Assembly (NCBI RefSeq): GCF_001552555.1
Contig: NZ_BCRK01000039.1
Span: forward strand, 1 to 38,527
Origin: Nocardiopsis trehalosi NBRC 14201
GTDB lineage: Bacteria; Actinomycetota; Actinomycetes; Streptosporangiales; Streptosporangiaceae
Length of the DNA: 38,527 bases
Reading direction: 5' to 3'
Shown here: positions 2,471 through 24,164 of the stretch, piece by piece
Layout of the letters: the number at the start of each line of letters is the position of its first letter
Position numbering within the stretch: the first letter of the stretch is position 1
Position numbers and translations under genes: made by a program
The notes under the pieces: generated by a model
Database searches by the model: none
Told to the model about the DNA's origin: nothing
The model's input: only the letters and a program-made list of their open reading frames with translations

Positions 2471-5400
2471 TCAGCCGCCGTAGTTCTCCCGGATCCACTC
2501 CTCCCAGGCCTCGCGGATCTCCTCCTCGGTGAGCTCGTCCTGCTGCTCCGGCGCGGGAGCGGTCTCCTCCGCCGGAGGGGCCTCCTCCGGCTGGTCGGGC
2601 GGCGGCGAGGACGGCGGGGGCGGCGGCGCGACCGTGTCGGCCGGAATCTGCGCCGAGTCCTGCGGCTCGGTGGTCTCCCGGGGGGACGGCGAGGCCGGGA
2701 TCGCGGGTTCCTCGGCCGACGGGGACGGGTCCTCCACCACCGACGAGTTCAGGTCCTCGGCCTCCGCCGGTCCCCTGTCGAGCATCGACGGGACGACCGC
2801 CGTCGCGCCGAGGCCCAGCGCGCACACCACGATCGCGCCCGCCGCCGCGAGCACCATCCGCTGCCGTCGGCGGCCGCGCGGCGCCGACGGCTCGGCGCCG
2901 GGACCGGGCACGATCTCCGCGCCGCCCGGGATGACGGGGCCGTCCCGTCCGTCCCCGCCGGACGCGGCGGTGGGCGGGGCGACGGGCTCGGGGCCGACGG
3001 CGGCCATGGTGGCGGTCGCGTCCCCTGGGACACCGGCGAAGGAGCCGGGGGTGTCGGGGCGCGGGCCGCTGAAGGGATTCGCGGAGGAGCCGGGGGCGTC
3101 GGCGCCCGGCGCGGCAGCGGCCGGCGGGGAGGGTGGCAGGGCGGACGGCACGGCGTCCATGGTCATGGTGGCGCCGCCTCCGGCGGAGGCGCCCCACGGG
3201 GCGGCGGCCGGGTCGGCGTCCGCCGCCACCGGGGCGCCCCCGGTCGCGGCGGGGGAGGTGCCGTCCCCGGAGTCCTCCACGGTGCCCGCACCGTGGAGGC
3301 CGGCGGGGGCCGGGTCGGCGGCGAGCCGCTCGGCGACGAACGCGGCGAAGCTGTCGGAGGCGTCGTCCCGGAACGCGGCAGCGGAGACGCCCGGCGCGAC
3401 GCCGTCGTGCGCCGGGTCGCGGCCCTCCCAGCCGGGGACGCCGTCCCGCGTGGGGGAGGGCGCGTCCTGCGGTGCACCGTTCCACCACGCGGTGGCCGCC
3501 GACGCCGGTGACCCGTCCGGGGCCGGGTCGGCGCTCGCCGGGAACGGGTCGGTGGAGGCCGCCACCGTCGCCCCGGGGCCGCCGTCGGCGGCGGGGGAGT
3601 CCGCCTGACCGGGGGCAGGGACGCCACCGGAGAGATCCGGGTCGTCCTGCGGCACCGCGCCGCCCGTGTGAGCGGAGTCCGCCATCCCGCTGTTCCTCTC
3701 GTTCGTGTCGGTCGATGCGGAGAGGGCGGGGCCCGCTGCTGCGGCCGCGCCGGCCCCCTCGGGTTCGGGAATCCCGGGCCGGCCCCCGGAGCCGCCCGGC
3801 GCCGGGCGCGACTGCGGGCGCGTCCAGGCGTTCCAGTGGTCGTCGGCGGTGGGGGTGGCGCGGGGGGAGTCGACGGCGGCTTGCGGGCCGCCGTCCGGGG
3901 CCGTGCCGCGGGACGTCCAGGCGCTCCAGCGGCCACCGTCGGCGTGCGGCGCAGCGGGCGCCTCGGCCCGGACGGCCGGTTCGGCGGACGGCACCCCGCC
4001 GTCCGGCGCGTCGCCGGCCGGTGCACCGGTCTCGGGCGCGTCGCCGAAGGCTGCGGGCGTCTGCCACGCGGGGGCGGTGGCGAAGGCGTCCCACGCCGCC
4101 TCATCGACGGCCGGACGCTCGGAGCGCCTGGAAGATGCGTCCTCCCGCTCGGCGGCGGGCCGTGCGCCCGCGCCCGACGCCCGACGGCGGGTGGCGAAGG
4201 CGTCCCAGCGGCCGACGGCGGGGCTCGGCGGAGGCGCGGGCGCCTCGGCCGCCGGGGCGGGAGCATCGGCCTCGGCTGCGGGCCGGGGACTCGTCGCGAA
4301 GGCATCCCACGCGGCAGCAGGCGCGGCGGCGCCCGCCGAGGGGAACGGGCCGTCCGGTGCGGAGGCCAGGACGGAGCCGTCCGGCCGATCGGCCGGGGCA
4401 TCCGCCGGAACGGGGGCGGCGGACGCGGCGCGGGCGTCGGCCTCGCCGACGGCGCGGAACGGCTCGGTCACGGGGTCCTGCGCTGCGGCGGTCGAAGGCG
4501 ACCGCTCCCCCTCTGCGGAACCGTATGTCCCCGGTGCGGCGGGGCTCCGGCCGGTGCGGAGGGACGGCAGGGCCGGGAAGGGGTCGGTCAGCAGGTCGCC
4601 GCCCTTGGCGGCGCGGCCGCGCGTGGGGGAGGCGGCCACCGGCCCGGCGGAGTGCGTCGGAGTGGGGTTCGCAGGATCGGCGGGGCCGTGCGCCGGGGCG
4701 GTCGGCCCCGCATCGATCGGTGAGGGGGACGCAGCGGGGAAAGGGTCGGTCAGCGGGTCGCCACCGGTGCGGGTGGGGTGCGGCGATACGGCACCGGGTT
4801 TCGGGGCGGTGTTCGCGGGAGCGGTCGGGACAGGGTGCAAAGGGCCGGCCGCGTGGGCCGAGGCGGCCGGGCGCGCATGGGCGGGGGAGGGGGACAGAGT
4901 GGGGAAGGGGTCGGTCAGCGGGTCGCCGCCGATGGGAGTGGGGCGCTGTGGTGCGCCGGCCACTGGTGCGGCGGAGTGCGTCGGGGCGGGATGAGCAGGA
5001 CCAGCGGGGTCGTGCGCGACCGCCGGTGTGGCGGAGGACTTCGGTACGGTGCTCGCGGTCGTGGCCGGGGTGTGCGCCGGGGCCGTGTCCCCTGAGTCGG
5101 CCGGGCCGTGTGTCCGTGCGCTCGGGGCGGCCGCCGTCGGGGCCACGGGGGACGGGTCGGTCAGCGGGTCGCCGCCGGTGGCGGCGTGGCGGCCGCCGGG
5201 TGCCGTCGTCCCGGAGCGGGCCGCGCTGAAGAACCCGGAGAAATCGACGTCATGGCCGTCCGCGCGGGTGCCGGGGGCGTCAGGACCCGTGCGCCACGGG
5301 ACCGGCGGGGCGGGCGGGACCGGCGGGGCGGACGTCGGCGGTGGCGCCGGAACGCCGCCGGTGGCGGGGAACGGTTCCGTCGTCGGTCCGAGGGGGGCCG

Positions 5401-17041: not shown

Positions 17042-18775
17042 CTACATCTGCTCGGGCGCGCGCACGCCCAGCACGCCGAGCCCCCGCACCAGGACGTTCA
17101 GCGTCGCCGCGGTCAGCGCCAGCCGCGACGCGCGGACCGCGTCGTCGTCGGCCTTGAGCACCGGGCACTGCTCGTAGAACGAGGTGAACGCCTGCGCCAG
17201 GTCGAACAGGTAGGCGCACAGCCGGTGCGGTTCCAGCGTCTCGCCGACCTTGGCCACGGTCGGGCCGAACCCCAGCAGGGTCAGCGCCAGCGCCCGCTCG
17301 GCGGGCTCGGTGACCGCGATCGGCCCGGTGGCGTCCTCGGGGGCCAGCCCGCCCTTGCGGAAGATCGACCGGATGCGCGCGGTGGCGTACTGGAGGTAGG
17401 GGCCGGTGTTGCCGTTGAGCGCCAGCATGCGGTCGAAGTCGAACACGTACTCGGTGTCGTGCGCCACCGACAGGTCGGCGTACTTCACGGCGCCGATGCC
17501 GACCTCGCGGGCGATCGCGGCGCGCGTGGCGTCGTCCAGGTCGGGCCGGTTCTCGGCGACGACCTTGGTGGCGCGCTCGACCGCCTCGTCCAGCAGCGCC
17601 ATCAGCCGGATGGACCGCCCGCTGCGGGTGCGCAGGATCTTGCCGTCCTCGCCGAGGACGTTGCCGATCTGCACGTGCACGGTCTCGACGTCCTCGGGCA
17701 GCCAGCCCGCCCGGCGCGCGGTCTCCCACACCATGCGGAAGTGCATGGCCTGCGGGGCGCCCACCACGTACACGATGCGGTCGGCGTGCAGCTCCTCGAC
17801 CCGGCGCCGGACGGTGGCGAGGTCGGTCGTGCCGTAGTTGTAGCCGCCGTCGCTCTTGCGGATGATCAGCGGGACGGGCTTGCCCTCGCGGCCGGTGAAG
17901 CCGTCGAGGAACACGCACAGCGCGCCCTCGCTGACCTCGGCGATGCCCTTCGCGCTCAGCTCGTCGCAGATGCCGGCGAGCGCGTCGTTGTAGGTGCTCT
18001 CGCCGGCGAGGTCGGCGTCGGTGAGCGTGACGTCGAGCGTGGCGTAGACCCGGTTGAAGTAGACCTTCGACAGGTCGACCAGTTCGCGCCAGTGCCGCAG
18101 CGTGTCGGGGTCGCCGGCCTGGAGGGCGACCACCCGGCGGCGGGCGCGGCCCGCGAAGTCCTCCGAGGCGTCGAACTTCTCGCGCGCCGCCTGGTAGAAC
18201 GCGTTCGGGTCGGTCTTGACGAGGTCGGCTTCGGGGGAGTCGGCCCCCACCTCCAGCAGGTGCTCGATGAGCATGCCGAACGGGGTGCCCCAGTCACCGA
18301 TGTGGTTCTGCCGGATGACGTTGTGCCCCAGGAACTCCAGGGTGCGCGCCAGCGCGTCGCCGACCACGGTCGTGCGCAGGTGGCCGACGTGCATCTCCTT
18401 GGCGACGTTGGGCGCCGAGTAGTCGATGGGGATGTTCTGCCGGGGCGGCTCGGGCGTCCCGAGCCGGGGGTCGGCCAGCACGTCCTGCGCCCGGTCGGCG
18501 ATCCAGTCGTCGCGCAGGGTCAGGTTGATGAACCCGGGGCCGCTGATGCCGACCTCGCGGCAGACGTCGTCCACCTCCAGGCGCGCGACGACGTCGGCGG
18601 CGACGTCGCGCGGCTTTCGGCCGAGCCGCTTGGCCAGCGCCAGAGCGGCGTTGGCCTGGTAGTCGGCGAACTGGGAGGGGCGGATGACGGGGTCGGTCGC
18701 GGCGTATTCGGCACCGAGGGCGGCGCCGAGCGCGGACTGGACCCGTTGCGTGAGGACTTCCTGCGGGTCGGCCAT
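17042..18775 (-). CDS. argS: Arginyl-tRNA synthetase
   Basis: A 577-residue class I aminoacyl-tRNA synthetase that charges tRNA-Arg. It has the N-terminal Add1-type domain, the HIGH-class motif as HVGH (129-132) within APNVAKEMHVGHLRTT, the SDGGYNYGTTDLA region, and in place of KMSKS the loop around GKILRTRSG, as in other bacterial ArgRS. It ends with a DALR anticodon-binding domain. TAGGCT lies 6 nt before the ATG, so the mRNA is probably leaderless. The downstream hairpin isolates it from the converging membrane-protein gene. Confidence 0.97.
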   Translation of the reverse strand: MADPQEVLTQRVQSALGAALGAEYAATDPVIRPSQFADYQANAALALAKRLGRKPRDVAADVVARLEVDDVCREVGISGPGFINLTLRDDWIADRAQDVLADPRLGTPEPPRQNIPIDYSAPNVAKEMHVGHLRTTVVGDALARTLEFLGHNVIRQNHIGDWGTPFGMLIEHLLEVGADSPEADLVKTDPNAFYQAAREKFDASEDFAGRARRRVVALQAGDPDTLRHWRELVDLSKVYFNRVYATLDVTLTDADLAGESTYNDALAGICDELSAKGIAEVSEGALCVFLDGFTGREGKPVPLIIRKSDGGYNYGTTDLATVRRRVEELHADRIVYVVGAPQAMHFRMVWETARRAGWLPEDVETVHVQIGNVLGEDGKILRTRSGRSIRLMALLDEAVERATKVVAENRPDLDDATRAAIAREVGIGAVKYADLSVAHDTEYVFDFDRMLALNGNTGPYLQYATARIRSIFRKGGLAPEDATGPIAVTEPAERALALTLLGFGPTVAKVGETLEPHRLCAYLFDLAQAFTSFYEQCPVLKADDDAVRASRLALTAATLNVLVRGLGVLGVRAPEQM

Positions 18776-18781
18776 GCGCTC

Positions 18782-18787
18782 AGCCTA
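18782..18787 (-). promoter_or_regulatory. -10 element for leaderless argS
   Basis: TAGGCT on the minus strand, 6 nt before the ATG, with no Shine-Dalgarno between them. Confidence 0.45.
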
Positions 18788-19031
18788 CCGACACCGCCCC
18801 ACCGGCACCGCCTGAGCTGCGCGGACGCCGGGCGGCGCCCGCCCGGAGGCGGGGCGGCGGGTGGGGCGGCCGGGGCGCGTGCGCCTCAGGGGGAACGTCC
18901 GGTGGGCGGACCCGGGGCGCGGCGGGCCGCTCGCCTCGGACCGTGGGCGGAGGGAGCGGACCGGACGCCGGCCCGATGTGCCGGGGCGGGCGGATGCGCG
19001 AGCGTGTGCGGACCCGACCGAGGAGGCGCCC

Positions 19032-20531
19032 ATGCCCCGCCCGCCCGTACGGCTTTTCCACTCGCGTAGACCCGGTGCGACGGCCGCCCTGCCGCTCGCG
19101 GTCACCACCGCCCTCACCACCGTCCTCGTCCCGCTCGCGGCGACGGCGGCCGCCGCCGAGGAGCCGTCCGCCGCAGCGGGCGGCCGACTCGACTGGGGCG
19201 ACTGCCCCGAGGGCGACTACGGGGCCGGCATGGAGTGCGCCGAGCTCCGCGTCCCCGTCGACCACGCCGACCCGCGCGGCCGGCACATCACGCTGACCCT
19301 CGGCCGGCTCCCGCACACCGAAGAGGGCCGCGCCGAGGGTTCGGTGCTGGTCAACCCCGGAGGGCCCATGGGATTCGGCATCGAGTACCTCGGCACCCTC
19401 GGCGCGCCCTTCGCCGGGCTGCGCGAGCACATGGACGTCGTCACCTGGGACCTGCGCGGCGACCCCGGCGGGTTCGGCGGGTTCAGCACCCCGATCGACT
19501 GCGAATGGGACTACGTGCGCAGCCCCGCGCTCCCCGCCGACCAGGCGGCGTTCGACGACCTGGCGGCCGCCAACCGGGAGACCGCCGACGCCTGCCGCGC
19601 CGCCGACCCCGAGCTGTTCGACCACATGGGCTCCGCCGACCACGCCCGCGACCTGGAGGCCGTCCGCCGGGCGCTGGGGGAGCGGCGGCTCAACCTGCAC
19701 ATGACCTCCTACGGCGGCACCATCGGGCAGACCTACGCCCGCCTGTTCCCGGAGCGGGTGCGCACCCTCTACCTGGACGGGGTCGCCGACCACACCGAGG
19801 CGGGCGACGCGGTCTACGAGGGCTTCGCCGCCGACGGCGACGAGGCGTTCGGGCGGTTCACCGACTGGTGCGCCGAGGACGCGTCGTGCGCGCTGCACGG
19901 GCGGGACGTGCCCGCGCTGTGGCGGGAGCTGATCGACGCCGCCGACAGCGAACCCATCCCCGCGCCCGTCGCGGACGTCGACTACACCGGGCGCGACATC
20001 CAGCACGCGGCCGTGGGCGTCCTGTTCCGCTCCACCCCCGGGCCGGAGTGGGCGGGCGTCGCCCAGGCCATCGCGGACGGGCTGGAGGGGGACGCCTCCG
20101 GCTTCGTCACCGACCCCGAACGCCCGTTCGCCGGATTCCCCATGCCCGGGGTCGTGGAGTGCCTGGACTGGGAGTACCCCGCCGACCACGCCGAGGCCGC
20201 GGCGACCGCCGAACGGATCGAGGAGGCCGCCCCGCTGACCGGCGGCCGGCTCCAGATGTACGGCAACATCCTGTCCTGCGCCGGCTGGCCGACCCCGGTC
20301 AGCAACCCGCCCGGTCCGCTCCCCGCTGAGGTGCCGCCGATGCTCGGGGCGGGCAGCTGGTCCGACGGCGGGTCGACGGCGCGCGCCGTCGACGCGGTCG
20401 AGGGCGGCGTCACCATCCGCCGCGACGGCCCCGGCCACGGCCTCTACTGGATGGGCGACGCCTGCGTCATCGCCCACGCCGACCACTACCTCCGCACCAC
20501 CGAACTCCCCCCGGCCGACACCATCTGCTGA
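19032..20531 (+). CDS. Secreted alpha/beta-hydrolase (tripeptidyl aminopeptidase-like)
   Basis: A 499-residue exported hydrolase of the actinomycete SlpD/tripeptidyl-aminopeptidase group. AGGAGG stands 5 nt before the ATG. A signal peptide spans about 1-42 (basic start, hydrophobic core, cleavage near ATAAAAEE). Then come DWGDCPEG, the oxyanion motif NPGGP (109-113), the nucleophile region LHMTSYGGT with Ser226, Asp445 in SWSDGG, and His469 in GPGHG, with the C-terminal TAP-like end YLRTTELPPADTIC. The nucleophile elbow is MTSYG instead of the usual GxSYG. At least eight Cys suggest disulfides. Likely an exopeptidase or proline-type peptidase; the substrate is not known. Confidence 0.88.
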   Translation: MPRPPVRLFHSRRPGATAALPLAVTTALTTVLVPLAATAAAAEEPSAAAGGRLDWGDCPEGDYGAGMECAELRVPVDHADPRGRHITLTLGRLPHTEEGRAEGSVLVNPGGPMGFGIEYLGTLGAPFAGLREHMDVVTWDLRGDPGGFGGFSTPIDCEWDYVRSPALPADQAAFDDLAAANRETADACRAADPELFDHMGSADHARDLEAVRRALGERRLNLHMTSYGGTIGQTYARLFPERVRTLYLDGVADHTEAGDAVYEGFAADGDEAFGRFTDWCAEDASCALHGRDVPALWRELIDAADSEPIPAPVADVDYTGRDIQHAAVGVLFRSTPGPEWAGVAQAIADGLEGDASGFVTDPERPFAGFPMPGVVECLDWEYPADHAEAAATAERIEEAAPLTGGRLQMYGNILSCAGWPTPVSNPPGPLPAEVPPMLGAGSWSDGGSTARAVDAVEGGVTIRRDGPGHGLYWMGDACVIAHADHYLRTTELPPADTIC

Positions 20532-20628
20532 CCCGGCCCCCGCCCCGGCACCACCCCGGCGCCGGGGCCACTCGGCGGCCGCCACGGCGCCGCATCCCCA
20601 GCGGGCCGCCACCCCCTCCCCACGGCGG

Positions 20629-20661
20629 CCCGCTGCGGGGGCGGGGCGCCCCCGCAGCGGG
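20629..20661 (+). terminator. Terminator of secreted hydrolase gene
   Basis: CCCGCTGCGGGGGCG and CGCCCCCGCAGCGGG form a perfect 15-bp stem with a GGG loop, about 100 nt after the stop codon. The stem can be lengthened outward past a one-base bulge. Confidence 0.6.
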
Positions 20662-20663
20662 GC

Positions 20664-20752
20664 CGCCTCGGGGCCGTCCCGGCGTGATGCGCCGGCGTTC
20701 CGCCCGTCCCGTCGTCCTCCGGGGGCGTCCACATTGGAGCGATGGACCGCCA
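20664..20752 (+). repeat. Upstream copy of duplicated promoter/start segment
   Basis: The 70 bases 20664-20733 are identical to 20856-20925, and the match continues past the start codon with a few mismatches to about 20752. The copy includes CACATT, six bases and an ATG (20742) that opens a 45-codon frame (MDRHPLPPGGG, stop 20877-20879) resembling the first residues of the downstream gene. Confidence 0.85.
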
Positions 20753-20855
20753 CCCCCTTCCGCCGGGTGGCGGTAGGGGCGCCCCAACGCGGCCCGCTTC
20801 CGGCCTGCCGTGGGGTCGCGCCGCCGTCCGTGTGCCGCGCCGCACCAGCGCGTCC

Positions 20856-20944
20856 CGCCTCGGGGCCGTCCCGGCGTGATGCGCCGGCGTTCCGCCCGTC
20901 CCGTCGTCCTCCGGGGGCGTCCACAATGGGGCGATGGACCGCGA
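20856..20944 (+). repeat. Downstream copy of duplicated promoter/start segment
   Basis: Second copy, offset by exactly 192 bp. It contains CACAAT, six bases and the ATG at 20934 of the real gene. The -10-like hexamer and spacing suggest a leaderless promoter, present in both copies. The whole gap 20532-20933 holds the terminator, both copies and an unremarkable 80-nt middle. Confidence 0.85.
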
Positions 20945-22283
20945 ACCCCCTCCCGCCGGGCGGCCGGTTCGGCGCGTGCTCGCCGTCGTCGCCGCCCTGC
21001 TGGTCACGGCCTGCGTGTGCGTGCCCTCGATCCGGTCGTTCACGCCGCCGCCCGTCGGCCGGGACGGCCGGGCCGTCGCCGCCGACGCGCTGCCCCGCCT
21101 GGCGTTCCTGCGGGCCGAGCTGGACTCCGGCGCGGGCGAGCGGATGCAGCTGCTGTTCCCCGAGGGCTACGCCTTCCTGCACGCCCTGTACGGGCTGAGC
21201 CGGGTCAACACCGCCGTCCTCGACCCCGGCCAGCGCGCCGCCTCCCTGGAAGAGGCGCGGTGGGCGCTGGAGCGGCTGGAGTCCCCGGCGGGCACCGCCC
21301 CGTTCCCGGCCGAGGCCGCGCCCGCGTACGGCGTCTACCACGCCGGATGGTCGGCCTGGCTGCGCGGCCGCGTCGTGGAACTCGCCGGCGGGCCCGCCGC
21401 CGCCCCCGAGGAGGCCGCCGCGCTCGCCCGCGACGCCGCCGAACTCGACGCCGCCTTCACCGACGCGCTGCGCTCGGGCACCCCCTACCTCACCGCCTAC
21501 CCCGGCCTGGCGTGGCCGGTCGACAGCGTGGTCGGCGCCGCCGTCCTGCGCCTGTCCGACCGGGTGCACGGCACCTCCGACCACACCGCGACGCTCGACC
21601 GGTGGTCCGACGCCGTCCGCGACCGCCTCGACCCCGCCACCGGCCTCATCCCGCACAGCGTCGACCCGCTCACCGGCGCCCCGCTGGAGGGCGCCCGGGG
21701 CAGTTCCCAGGCGCTCCTGCTGCGCTTCCTGGCCGAGGTCGACCCGGAGTGGGCGGCCGCCGACTACGCGGTGTTCCTCGACCGCTTCGGCTCCACCGCC
21801 GCCCCGCTTCCCGGCATCCGGGAGCACCCGCGCGGCGACGACTCCCCGGGCGACGTCGACTCCGGGCCGCTGGTGTTCGGCCTGTCCGCGTCGGCGAGCA
21901 CGGTCGCGCTCGGCGACGCGGTGCTGTTCGGGGACGCGGCGGCGGCCGCCGCCCTCACCGGGTTCGCCGAGGCCACCGGGACCGCCGTGGAGACCGGCGG
22001 GCAGCGGCGCTACCTGGGCGGAATGCTGCCGGTGGGCGACGCGTTCCTCGTCTGGTCGCTGACCGCGTCCGGTGAGCACGCCGCGCCCGGCCCGGTGGCG
22101 ACCGACCGGCTCGCGCGGTGGTGGCGGGTGCCGTGGTTCGCCGGGGTCGCGGTGGTCCTCGCCGCCGCCTGGTGGCCGGCCGCCCGCGCGTTCCGCCGCC
22201 GCCCCCGGCCGTCCCCGGCCGCCCCCGGGCCGTCCTCGCCGGGCACCCCCGGGTCGTCGCCGCCGGGCGCCGCGACCGGCTGA
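20934..22283 (+). CDS. Two-TM protein with large extracytoplasmic helical domain
   Basis: A 449-residue protein with an N-terminal membrane helix (about 14-34), about 345 mainly helical extracytoplasmic residues, a second helix near 385-405 and a basic, Pro/Ser-rich cytoplasmic tail. The outer domain contains GYAFLHALYGLSRVNTAVLD, PYLTAYPGLAWPVDSVVGAA and GSSQALLLRFLAEVDPEWA, a pattern that could be an (alpha/alpha) barrel-like fold. I recognise the type as a conserved actinobacterial hypothetical but cannot assign a function. Its start lies inside the second copy of the 192-bp-spaced duplication, and the mRNA is probably leaderless. Confidence 0.8.
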   Translation: MDREPPPAGRPVRRVLAVVAALLVTACVCVPSIRSFTPPPVGRDGRAVAADALPRLAFLRAELDSGAGERMQLLFPEGYAFLHALYGLSRVNTAVLDPGQRAASLEEARWALERLESPAGTAPFPAEAAPAYGVYHAGWSAWLRGRVVELAGGPAAAPEEAAALARDAAELDAAFTDALRSGTPYLTAYPGLAWPVDSVVGAAVLRLSDRVHGTSDHTATLDRWSDAVRDRLDPATGLIPHSVDPLTGAPLEGARGSSQALLLRFLAEVDPEWAAADYAVFLDRFGSTAAPLPGIREHPRGDDSPGDVDSGPLVFGLSASASTVALGDAVLFGDAAAAAALTGFAEATGTAVETGGQRRYLGGMLPVGDAFLVWSLTASGEHAAPGPVATDRLARWWRVPWFAGVAVVLAAAWWPAARAFRRRPRPSPAAPGPSSPGTPGSSPPGAATG

Positions 22284-22288
22284 CCGGT

Positions 22289-22305
22289 CGCCCCGCATCG
22301 GGGCG
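22289..22305. terminator. Terminator hairpin between converging genes
   Basis: CGCCCCG and CGGGGCG pair perfectly across a CAT loop, 6 nt after the stop codon of the upstream gene. Confidence 0.5.
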
Positions 22306-22393
22306 CGGCCCCGGCCGGCACCGGTACCACCTGGTCCGCCCACCGATGGCCGACGGCGGCCGCGTCCGCCTCCGGGCCCGCCCGTCGGCGCGG

Positions 22394-22948
22394 TCACGGC
22401 CGGGCGACGGAGCGCCGCCCGGTCCAGCCCGTGGCGGCCACGACCTCACCGGCGATGTCCGCGACGGCCCGGCCGTCCGTCGCCACCCGCACGGTGTCCG
22501 CAGGGACGCACCGGTCCAGGAGCCGCGCCTTGCGGGCGCTGCCCTCCAGCTCCCGCTCCAGTTCCGAACCGATCTCCCGGCGCGTCAACCGCTCGCGGGC
22601 GGTGGCGTCGGAGGCGGTGAGCAGGACCCGCACGATCCGGACGTCCGCCCCCATGGCGCGCTGGAACATGGCGGTCTCCTCGGGCAGCACGCTGAGCGTG
22701 TTCGTGTAGACGAGTCGGCGGTACCCGCGCCGGGCGGTGTTGGCCCACACGGCGGCGAGGTTGGCCGCGGTGATCTCCGAGCGGTCGGGGTCCCCCTCCG
22801 GGGCCGGGTGCACCTGCCCCATGAAGTCGCCGTCGATGACCGCGTGGGGGACCGACGCGGCCCGCAGCAGCGCCGAGACCTCCCACCCCGCCGTCGTCTT
22901 GCCGACCCCGGCCCGCCCGCCGATCAGTAGCACCTCAGCGTGATCCAT
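22394..22948 (-). CDS. P-loop kinase-like ATP-binding protein
   Basis: A 184-residue cytoplasmic protein with a Walker A motif GGRAGVGKTT (residues 10-19), HAVIDGDFMG as the likely second substrate/metal region, TNTLSVLPEE, and a lid-like Arg-rich region around RERLTRREIGSELE. The size and order resemble small-molecule or nucleotide kinases (AAA_33/adenylylsulfate-kinase-like). The substrate cannot be read. The start at 22946-22948 was chosen because the Walker A follows directly; no ribosome site is visible. It converges with the two-TM protein gene and lies downstream of plsX. Confidence 0.75.
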   Translation of the reverse strand: MDHAEVLLIGGRAGVGKTTAGWEVSALLRAASVPHAVIDGDFMGQVHPAPEGDPDRSEITAANLAAVWANTARRGYRRLVYTNTLSVLPEETAMFQRAMGADVRIVRVLLTASDATARERLTRREIGSELERELEGSARKARLLDRCVPADTVRVATDGRAVADIAGEVVAATGWTGRRSVARP

Positions 22949-23075
22949 GGGGGCAGCGTGCCAGTCCGCGTCCGCCGTCCGCGATCCGTTTTCGAGCGGC
23001 CCCGCGGCCACGGCCGCGCGGGAGCGGGGGCCGCCCGGGGATGGCGGCGGCGCGGGCGTCAGCGGGGGAGCGGGG

Positions 23076-24164
23076 TCACTCCTCGCTCTGGCTGAGGCGG
23101 TGCAGCCACGTGGACGAGCGGTTCGTGGCCGTGACCCGGCGCCGCACCTCGTCGACGATCCGGCCGCCCGCCAGCTCGTGGGCGAGCAGGCACGCCTGCT
23201 CGACCGCGTGGGCGCGGCTCGCACCGTGCGCGATGACCACCGTCCCGTTGAGGCCGAGCAGCACCGCCCCGCCGTAGGTGTCGCTGTCGAACCGGGCGCG
23301 CAGCTCGCGCAGCGGCCGCCGCTGCAGCAGCGCGCCCGCCTTCGCCAGCGGGCCGGCGGTGAGTGCCTCGCCCACCGCGTCGAAGGCGAACCGCACGGCG
23401 CCCTCGACCGACTTCAGCGCGACGTTGCCGGTGAACCCGTCGGTGACCACCACGTCCACCTCGCCCGCGAGCAGGTCGTGCCCCTCGATGTTGCCCCGGA
23501 AGTCGATCGCGGGCGGGCCCGAGGCGGTCGCGCTGAGCAGTTCGGCGGCCTTGCGCGCCAGCCGGTTGCCCTTGCCGGGCTCCGCGCCGATGGTGAGGAT
23601 GCCCACCCGGGGGGCGGCGATGCCGTGCGCCGTCTGCGCGTAGGCGGCCCCCAGGTGGGCGAACTGCACCAGCATCTCCGGCTTCGCGTCGGCGTTGGCG
23701 CCCGCGTCCAGCAGGATCGTCGGCCGGGGCAGCGTGGGCAGCGCCACGGCGAGCGCCGCCCGCAGCACACCGGGCTGGGTGCGCAGCCGCACGGTGGACG
23801 TGGCCACCACGCCGCCGGTCGACCCCGCCGACACCAGCGCCGCCGCGTCGCCCTGCCGGATCAGCTTGCACGCGACCGCCACGCTGGAACGGGGCCGCCG
23901 CCAGCTCGTCAGCGCCCCCTCGTGCATGGCCAGCGCGTCCTCGGCGTGGACGACGGGCACCAGGCCGATGGCGTCCTCCTCGCGCAGCAGCGACGCCAGT
24001 TCCGGCAGCCGCCCGACGAGGACGAGACGCAGCCCGTGCTCGCGCACGGCCCGCACCGCCCCCCGCACGATCTCGCGCGGCGCGTGGTCGCCGCCCATGG
24101 CGTCGACCGCGATCACCGGCGACCCGGCCGGCGCCGGCCGATCCGCAATGGGTGCGCCACTCAC
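23076..24164 (-). CDS. plsX: Phosphate acyltransferase PlsX
   Basis: A 362-residue PlsX. It converts acyl-ACP and phosphate to acyl-phosphate, the donor for PlsY in phosphatidic acid synthesis, at the inner face of the membrane. Family motifs: VIAVDAMGGDHAP near the N-terminus, LVSAGSTGG, LLDAGANADAKPE, GILTIGAEPGKGN, DFRGNIEGHD, VVVTDGFTGNVALKS and the C-terminal GGAVLLGLNGTVVIAHGAS. The start is a GTG at 24162-24164 with GAGGGG 8 nt upstream. No rpmF, fab or acpP gene adjoins it, unlike the classical arrangement. Confidence 0.95.
   Translation of the reverse strand: MSGAPIADRPAPAGSPVIAVDAMGGDHAPREIVRGAVRAVREHGLRLVLVGRLPELASLLREEDAIGLVPVVHAEDALAMHEGALTSWRRPRSSVAVACKLIRQGDAAALVSAGSTGGVVATSTVRLRTQPGVLRAALAVALPTLPRPTILLDAGANADAKPEMLVQFAHLGAAYAQTAHGIAAPRVGILTIGAEPGKGNRLARKAAELLSATASGPPAIDFRGNIEGHDLLAGEVDVVVTDGFTGNVALKSVEGAVRFAFDAVGEALTAGPLAKAGALLQRRPLRELRARFDSDTYGGAVLLGLNGTVVIAHGASRAHAVEQACLLAHELAGGRIVDEVRRRVTATNRSSTWLHRLSQSEE

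Follow-up and report, generated by a model that had tools for sequence, protein, structure and literature searches.

We analysed a stretch of 38,527 nucleotides, referred to here as the window, which forms positions 1 to 38,527 of contig NZ_BCRK01000039.1 in the draft genome of Nocardiopsis trehalosi NBRC 14201 (6.38 Mb, 368 contigs; GCF_001552555.1). Between a hydrolase gene and a gene for a predicted membrane-anchored protein lie two direct copies of one segment, each apparently containing a promoter and a start codon. The features of this locus are as follows.

18861-20531, plus strand: gene for an alpha/beta hydrolase with a TAP-like C-terminal domain (PF00561, PF08386)
20624-20667, plus strand: predicted GC-rich hairpin just before copy 1 (-49.4 kcal/mol, z -5.17), without a T tract
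20663-20761, plus strand: copy 1 (distal), with putative promoter region, -10-like hexamer CACATT, 6-nt spacer, ATG at 20742 and first codons
20742-20879, plus strand: 45-codon open reading frame from the copy-1 ATG to a TGA (20877-20879) within copy 2, a putative 5' gene fragment
20746-20774, plus strand: perfect 10-bp inverted repeat (20746-20755 with 20765-20774), directly after the copy-1 ATG
20855-20953, plus strand: copy 2 (proximal, putatively native), with putative promoter region, -10-like hexamer CACAAT, 6-nt spacer and ATG at 20934
20934-22283, plus strand: gene for a putative membrane-anchored protein of 449 aa with a predicted linalool dehydratase-isomerase-like fold

The copies are 99 nt long and 95% identical at an offset of 192, and they share an exact core of 71 nt; 30 dinucleotide shuffles of 20532-21046 gave exact repeats of at most 16 nt. 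An earlier note on this DNA had reported about 70 identical bases and some further near-identical ones, including the -10-like hexamer and the ATG, and this description holds. The span that it gave, 20664-20944, falls slightly short of 20663-20953 at both ends, with likeness probably continuing to about 20785/20978. Five positions differ between copy 1 and copy 2 (20734 T/A, 20738 A/G, 20751 C/G, 20753 C/A and 20758 T/C), and all of them fall within the final 28 of the 99 positions, at or 3' of the -10 hexamer (P = 0.0014 under random placement).

A search of the 6.38-Mb draft genome with the 99 nt, in which the best 40 of 114 first-look candidates were scored, returned no third copy, and the next-best match among these had an E value of 0.0065. 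An interspersed element was ruled out, since only two strong places appeared among the best 40 of 114 candidates scored. The 449-aa protein matches its own genome once, leaving no second copy of the gene as a source for copy 1, and no plasmid appeared among the near matches to 20534-22283. The draft state of the genome, in 368 contigs, leaves some room for an assembler having copied a single promoter. The copies differ, however, at five sites in 99 nt and have different flanks on both sides, which argues against a false join, since that would be expected to give identical copies; we regard an assembly artefact as extremely unlikely.

We then considered how far the likeness extends beyond the 99 nt. 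The claim of downstream likeness rests on anchored extension with linear gap costs, compared with other window positions, several other forms of the test being weaker or negative. By this measure the likeness, with small indels, reaches about 20785/20978 and was equalled at 181 of 25,624 window positions; extensions from two starts within the 99 nt were equalled at 55 of 25,620 and 25 of 25,616. From 20786 onward, 4264 of 25,640 window positions extended as well, and the likeness there was not significant. Anchored extension with affine gap costs was equalled by one of 200 shuffles when started from 20751 and, not significantly, by 22 of 200 when started after the 99 nt. Free alignment of the downstream flank was not significant either (1106 and 409 of 2000 shuffles as good). 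The upstream flank showed no likeness by anchored extension (123 of 200 as good) or by free alignment (393 and 1912 of 2000). Likeness within the copied unit is thus supported to about 20785 and not across 20786-20854, which bears on whether the unit equals the 192-bp spacing; the unit could instead be about 123 nt followed by an unrelated spacer.

When the two 192-nt units were aligned, the columns up to 20733 held 71 matches and no differences, while 20734-20785 held 39 matches, 10 mismatches and 4 gaps (Fisher p 2.2e-6 for this contrast), and the remainder past 20785 held 33 matches, 35 mismatches and 4 gaps. As far as these alignments tell, the pair is a mosaic and is not uniformly young in appearance. 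The suggestion that the duplication is recent therefore becomes uncertain, favoured by the 71 identical nucleotides and opposed by the 10 mismatches and 4 gaps in the next 53 columns. The unchanged block may be of recent origin, may have been homogenised by gene conversion or may be under constraint; alternatively, a shorter duplication may have occurred and the downstream likeness may be partly due to chance.

Comparison with related genomes suggested that the repeat is peculiar to this lineage among those sampled. Among the named relatives, the gene is carried by species of Nocardiopsis, Thermobifida, Allosalinactinospora, Actinorugispora and Murinocardiopsis. We kept 18 distinct orthologs, leaving out repeat loci of the same records (L010, L011, L013, L014, L051, L054 and L056), fragments (L016-L018 and L059) and a partial match at a contig edge (L050). 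In 17 orthologous loci, 400 nt or more of upstream sequence was available, and not one of them had a comparable repeat between -400 and +150. The best ungapped repeat score in these 17, from a simple short repeat, was 24, versus 84 here; the eighteenth ortholog, L015, has 117 nt upstream, too short to show a repeat at this offset. The 71-nt block was not recognisable upstream of 11 orthologs, with local scores of 15-26 (95% of 300 null scores were 28 or lower). Searching the DNA of 60 relatives with 20640-20960, at most 12 candidates being scored per genome, gave short weak matches, none at the orthologous gene. Among the papers listed in searches on duplicated promoters, on leaderless promoters in tandem and on small duplications of this type, we recognised nothing as this case, and a search for work that joins Nocardiopsis with leaderless promoters and transcription start sites found no paper.

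The orthologs also suggest which copy serves the gene. Of the 18 distinct orthologs, 13 carry the pattern NANNNT upstream of a candidate start at a spacing of 6 or 7 nt, a count in which several candidate starts per gene were permitted at every spacing and in which three matches (L041, L055 and L057) use a start other than the one nearest to the alignment estimate. It is missing at these spacings in the other five, and at any other non-overlapping pair of adjacent spacings from 0 to 59 nt it occurs in at most 4 of 18. Examples of the ortholog hexamers are GACAAT (L039), CACAAT (L041), TAGCAT (L042, L043 and L047) and TAGGAT (L015). The full TANNNT was found at 6 nt in two and at 7 nt in four of the 18, and both window copies have C in place of its first T. 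At the fifth base of the hexamer, copy 1 has T and copy 2 has A; the base is A in ten of the 13 orthologs, C in three and T in none. A scan of 20500-21050 with the sigma-70 consensus predicted no promoter.

This layout resembles one described for leaderless genes. In Actinobacteria, TANNNT-type -10 boxes lie about 12 nt before leaderless starts (PMC3160421, 2011); in Mycobacterium tuberculosis, where leaderless genes make up 26% of those with a primary start site, TANNNT boxes lie 7-12 nt upstream of transcription starts (PMC3898074, 2013). The present locus is like the actinobacterial leaderless genes with TANNNT in that a -10-like hexamer ends 6-7 nt before the start, as it does in 13 of 18 orthologs; it is unlike them in that the window hexamers begin with C rather than T and the arrangement is doubled. 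Because the hexamer-to-start arrangement recurs in these orthologs and fits the documented leaderless layout, copy 2 (CACAAT, 6 nt, ATG) most likely represents the native promoter and start of the gene.

Copy 1, with its likeness to the gene's start continuing past the 99 nt, is a piece of that start. Positions +8 to +18 after its ATG form an 11-mer identical, in register, to that of the closest ortholog, L039, from which copy 2 differs at three positions. Among the 38,516 11-mers of the window, this was the sole exact in-register match to any of 11 ortholog starts. With L039 as a single outgroup, the two promoter mismatches (20734 and 20738) appear derived in copy 1, whereas at 20751, 20753 and 20758 it is copy 1 that agrees with L039 and the live gene that does not. 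Accordingly, the view that copy 1 is simply decaying would be true of its promoter part only.

Taken together, these observations make it quite probable that the locus arose by a partial tandem duplication of the promoter and the 5' end of the gene, leaving a distal leaderless promoter that is probably vestigial. The absence of a third copy (best 40 of 114 candidates scored), the lack of a comparable repeat in any of the 17 loci and the arrangement in 13 of 18 orthologs all agree with the tandem duplication proposed in the earlier note. Partial tandem duplications that copy the 5' end of a gene are a known general class. The present case is like that class in having adjacent direct copies with promoter and start, the distal one truncated and frameshifted, and unlike it in being a mosaic, identical over the upstream 71 nt and diverged downstream. 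The duplication, with a unit of up to about 192 bp and not seen in the sampled relatives, would have copied the native leaderless promoter and the first coding part once, directly upstream. The proximal promoter (CACAAT) would then make a leaderless mRNA for the membrane protein, and some transcription may still begin at 20742, from the distal copy (CACATT). An RNA from there would begin with the frameshifted gene fragment, pass the 10-bp hairpin and enter the gene with a long 5' region. The distal promoter copy is probably vestigial or marginal.

A different reading would have both copies in use as a selected tandem double promoter, with the duplication raising or conditioning expression and the 71-nt block kept for its control sites. 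Consistent with this, the block has no differences, whereas 14 of the next 53 columns differ (Fisher p 2.2e-6, as above), and the distal hexamer retains A and T at its second and sixth positions with the same 6-nt spacing. The block is, however, unrecognisable upstream of the 11 orthologs compared, and the distal -10 has changed away from the state in L039. In the genome, a palindrome within the block has no exact occurrence outside the two copies; with up to two mismatches it gave 35 matches versus 25 for a reversed-pattern control, showing no sign of a regulon. We find such a double promoter unlikely. On the same genome-wide count (35 versus 25, at up to two mismatches), an operator pair or regulon was rejected. 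Quite improbable, in our estimate, is a more elaborate scheme in which two kinds of mRNA, a leaderless proximal one and a distal one with a structured, frameshifted 5' region, tune translation while conversion keeps the control region identical.

We also assessed whether the upstream reading frame could act as a leader. A 45-codon frame does open at the copy-1 ATG and end inside the second copy, at the TGA 20877-20879, as had been noted. The accompanying remark that the offset keeps the frame stands insofar as 192 is 3 x 64 and the two ATGs share a frame; a TGA separates them, 54 nt before the real ATG, so the upstream frame cannot fuse to the gene. Its GC content by codon position (0.82/0.80/0.84) differs from that of the gene (0.79/0.62/0.98), and on this measure the frame is not coding-like; no Pfam match was found at E values up to 0.1.

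The 10-bp inverted repeat directly after the copy-1 ATG could, if it forms in RNA, attenuate a distal transcript. This hairpin was not predicted at the matching place in copy 2, and 9 of 200 shuffles of 20742-20800 folded as well as the native sequence. The stronger hairpin at 20624-20667 probably forms the end of the transcript of the upstream hydrolase gene. A T-tailed terminator was looked for in 20500-21050 and not found, and no Rfam family matched 20400-21100 at E values up to 1.

These results bear on the idea of a decoy leader peptide or attenuator, in which the distal ATG is translated and passage into the gene is governed by the 45-codon product or by the 10-bp hairpin. The frame shared with the gene and the perfect hairpin at 20746-20774 speak for it. 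The frame without the codon-position GC pattern of coding DNA, which counts against the decoy leader peptide raised in the earlier note, the lack of any Pfam, Rfam or T-tailed terminator match within the limits given above, the folding of 9 of 200 shuffles as well, and the missing ORF-bearing repeat in 17 of 17 testable orthologous loci speak against it. We consider this mechanism very unlikely.

Equally doubtful is that the repeat is not a promoter at all, or that it encodes a minus-strand peptide (open reading frame 20486-21043) in which about 31 residues are repeated. In favour of such a peptide, the minus-strand frame runs across both copies without a stop, and the offset is divisible by three. 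Its codon-position GC content, however, is 0.75/0.78/0.88, versus 0.77/0.58/0.96 and 0.79/0.62/0.98 in the plus-strand genes; it also overlaps both of these genes, and it had no NCBIfam match at E values up to 0.1. A repeated minus-strand peptide was set aside on its codon-position GC content.

Leaderless promoters are so compact that some 120-190 bp of duplicated DNA can carry a whole expression signal, the promoter along with the start codon. This would offer actinobacteria a simple route to a second start site or a short open reading frame. Unless both sites are used, the case is a single-locus curiosity. It looks like a small duplication of a common sort and not like a novel regulatory system.

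The gene behind the repeat encodes what is, on a predicted structure, a member of an uncharacterised family of membrane-anchored proteins with a fold like that of linalool dehydratase-isomerase (Ldi). Its 449 residues begin with a hydrophobic N-terminal helix. The match to the Ldi family PF18566 (E 0.011, 15.7 bits) lies below the gathering cut-off of 26.1, and the profile match to linalool dehydratase-isomerase in the PDB is weak (E 0.0058). The predicted structure (mean pLDDT 81.3) clearly matched Ldi entries in Foldseek (PDB 5i3t, 6tft and others) with E values down to 2e-8 and TM scores of 0.53-0.57 by query length across 27 Ldi chains. The structure alignment comprised 10 sequences, L047 being left out for an unreadable residue in its translation. 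The window protein thus resembles Ldi in its predicted helical barrel and, weakly, in sequence, and differs from it in the hydrophobic N-terminal helix and in a Pfam score under the cut-off. The Ldi cysteines C171 and C180, named as mutated in PDB titles, have no counterpart; the only cysteines, 27 and 29, both lie within the N-terminal helix, so the protein is to be read as membrane-anchored with this fold and not necessarily as that enzyme.

The gene neighbourhood also seems to have been rearranged. In 9 of the 18 orthologous loci, plsX, the gene and argS follow one another in this order, all co-oriented. Two others (L042 and L043) have argS only, with a contig end close upstream, and the remaining seven have neither plsX nor argS within the 1.5-3 kb examined (shorter at contig ends). 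In the window, the plus strand carries the gene and the hydrolase gene, the minus strand plsX and argS, and an AAA-domain gene stands between the gene for the 449-aa protein and plsX. In this lineage the block of hydrolase and gene, within 17042-24164, seems to have become inverted with respect to plsX and argS. The repeat sits inside this block and not at its edge.

Two further observations were made in the window. The AAA-domain open reading frame between the gene and plsX (22394-23224) is P-loop kinase-like, and its best NCBIfam match, to a garosamine/gentamicin-resistance ATP-binding family, is weak, at 22.1 bits against a cut-off of 170. At 4531-5191, direct repeats of about 45-138 nt that have diverged from one another lie clustered; several of them are spaced at about 162-165 nt, and they possibly correspond to a repetitive protein region.
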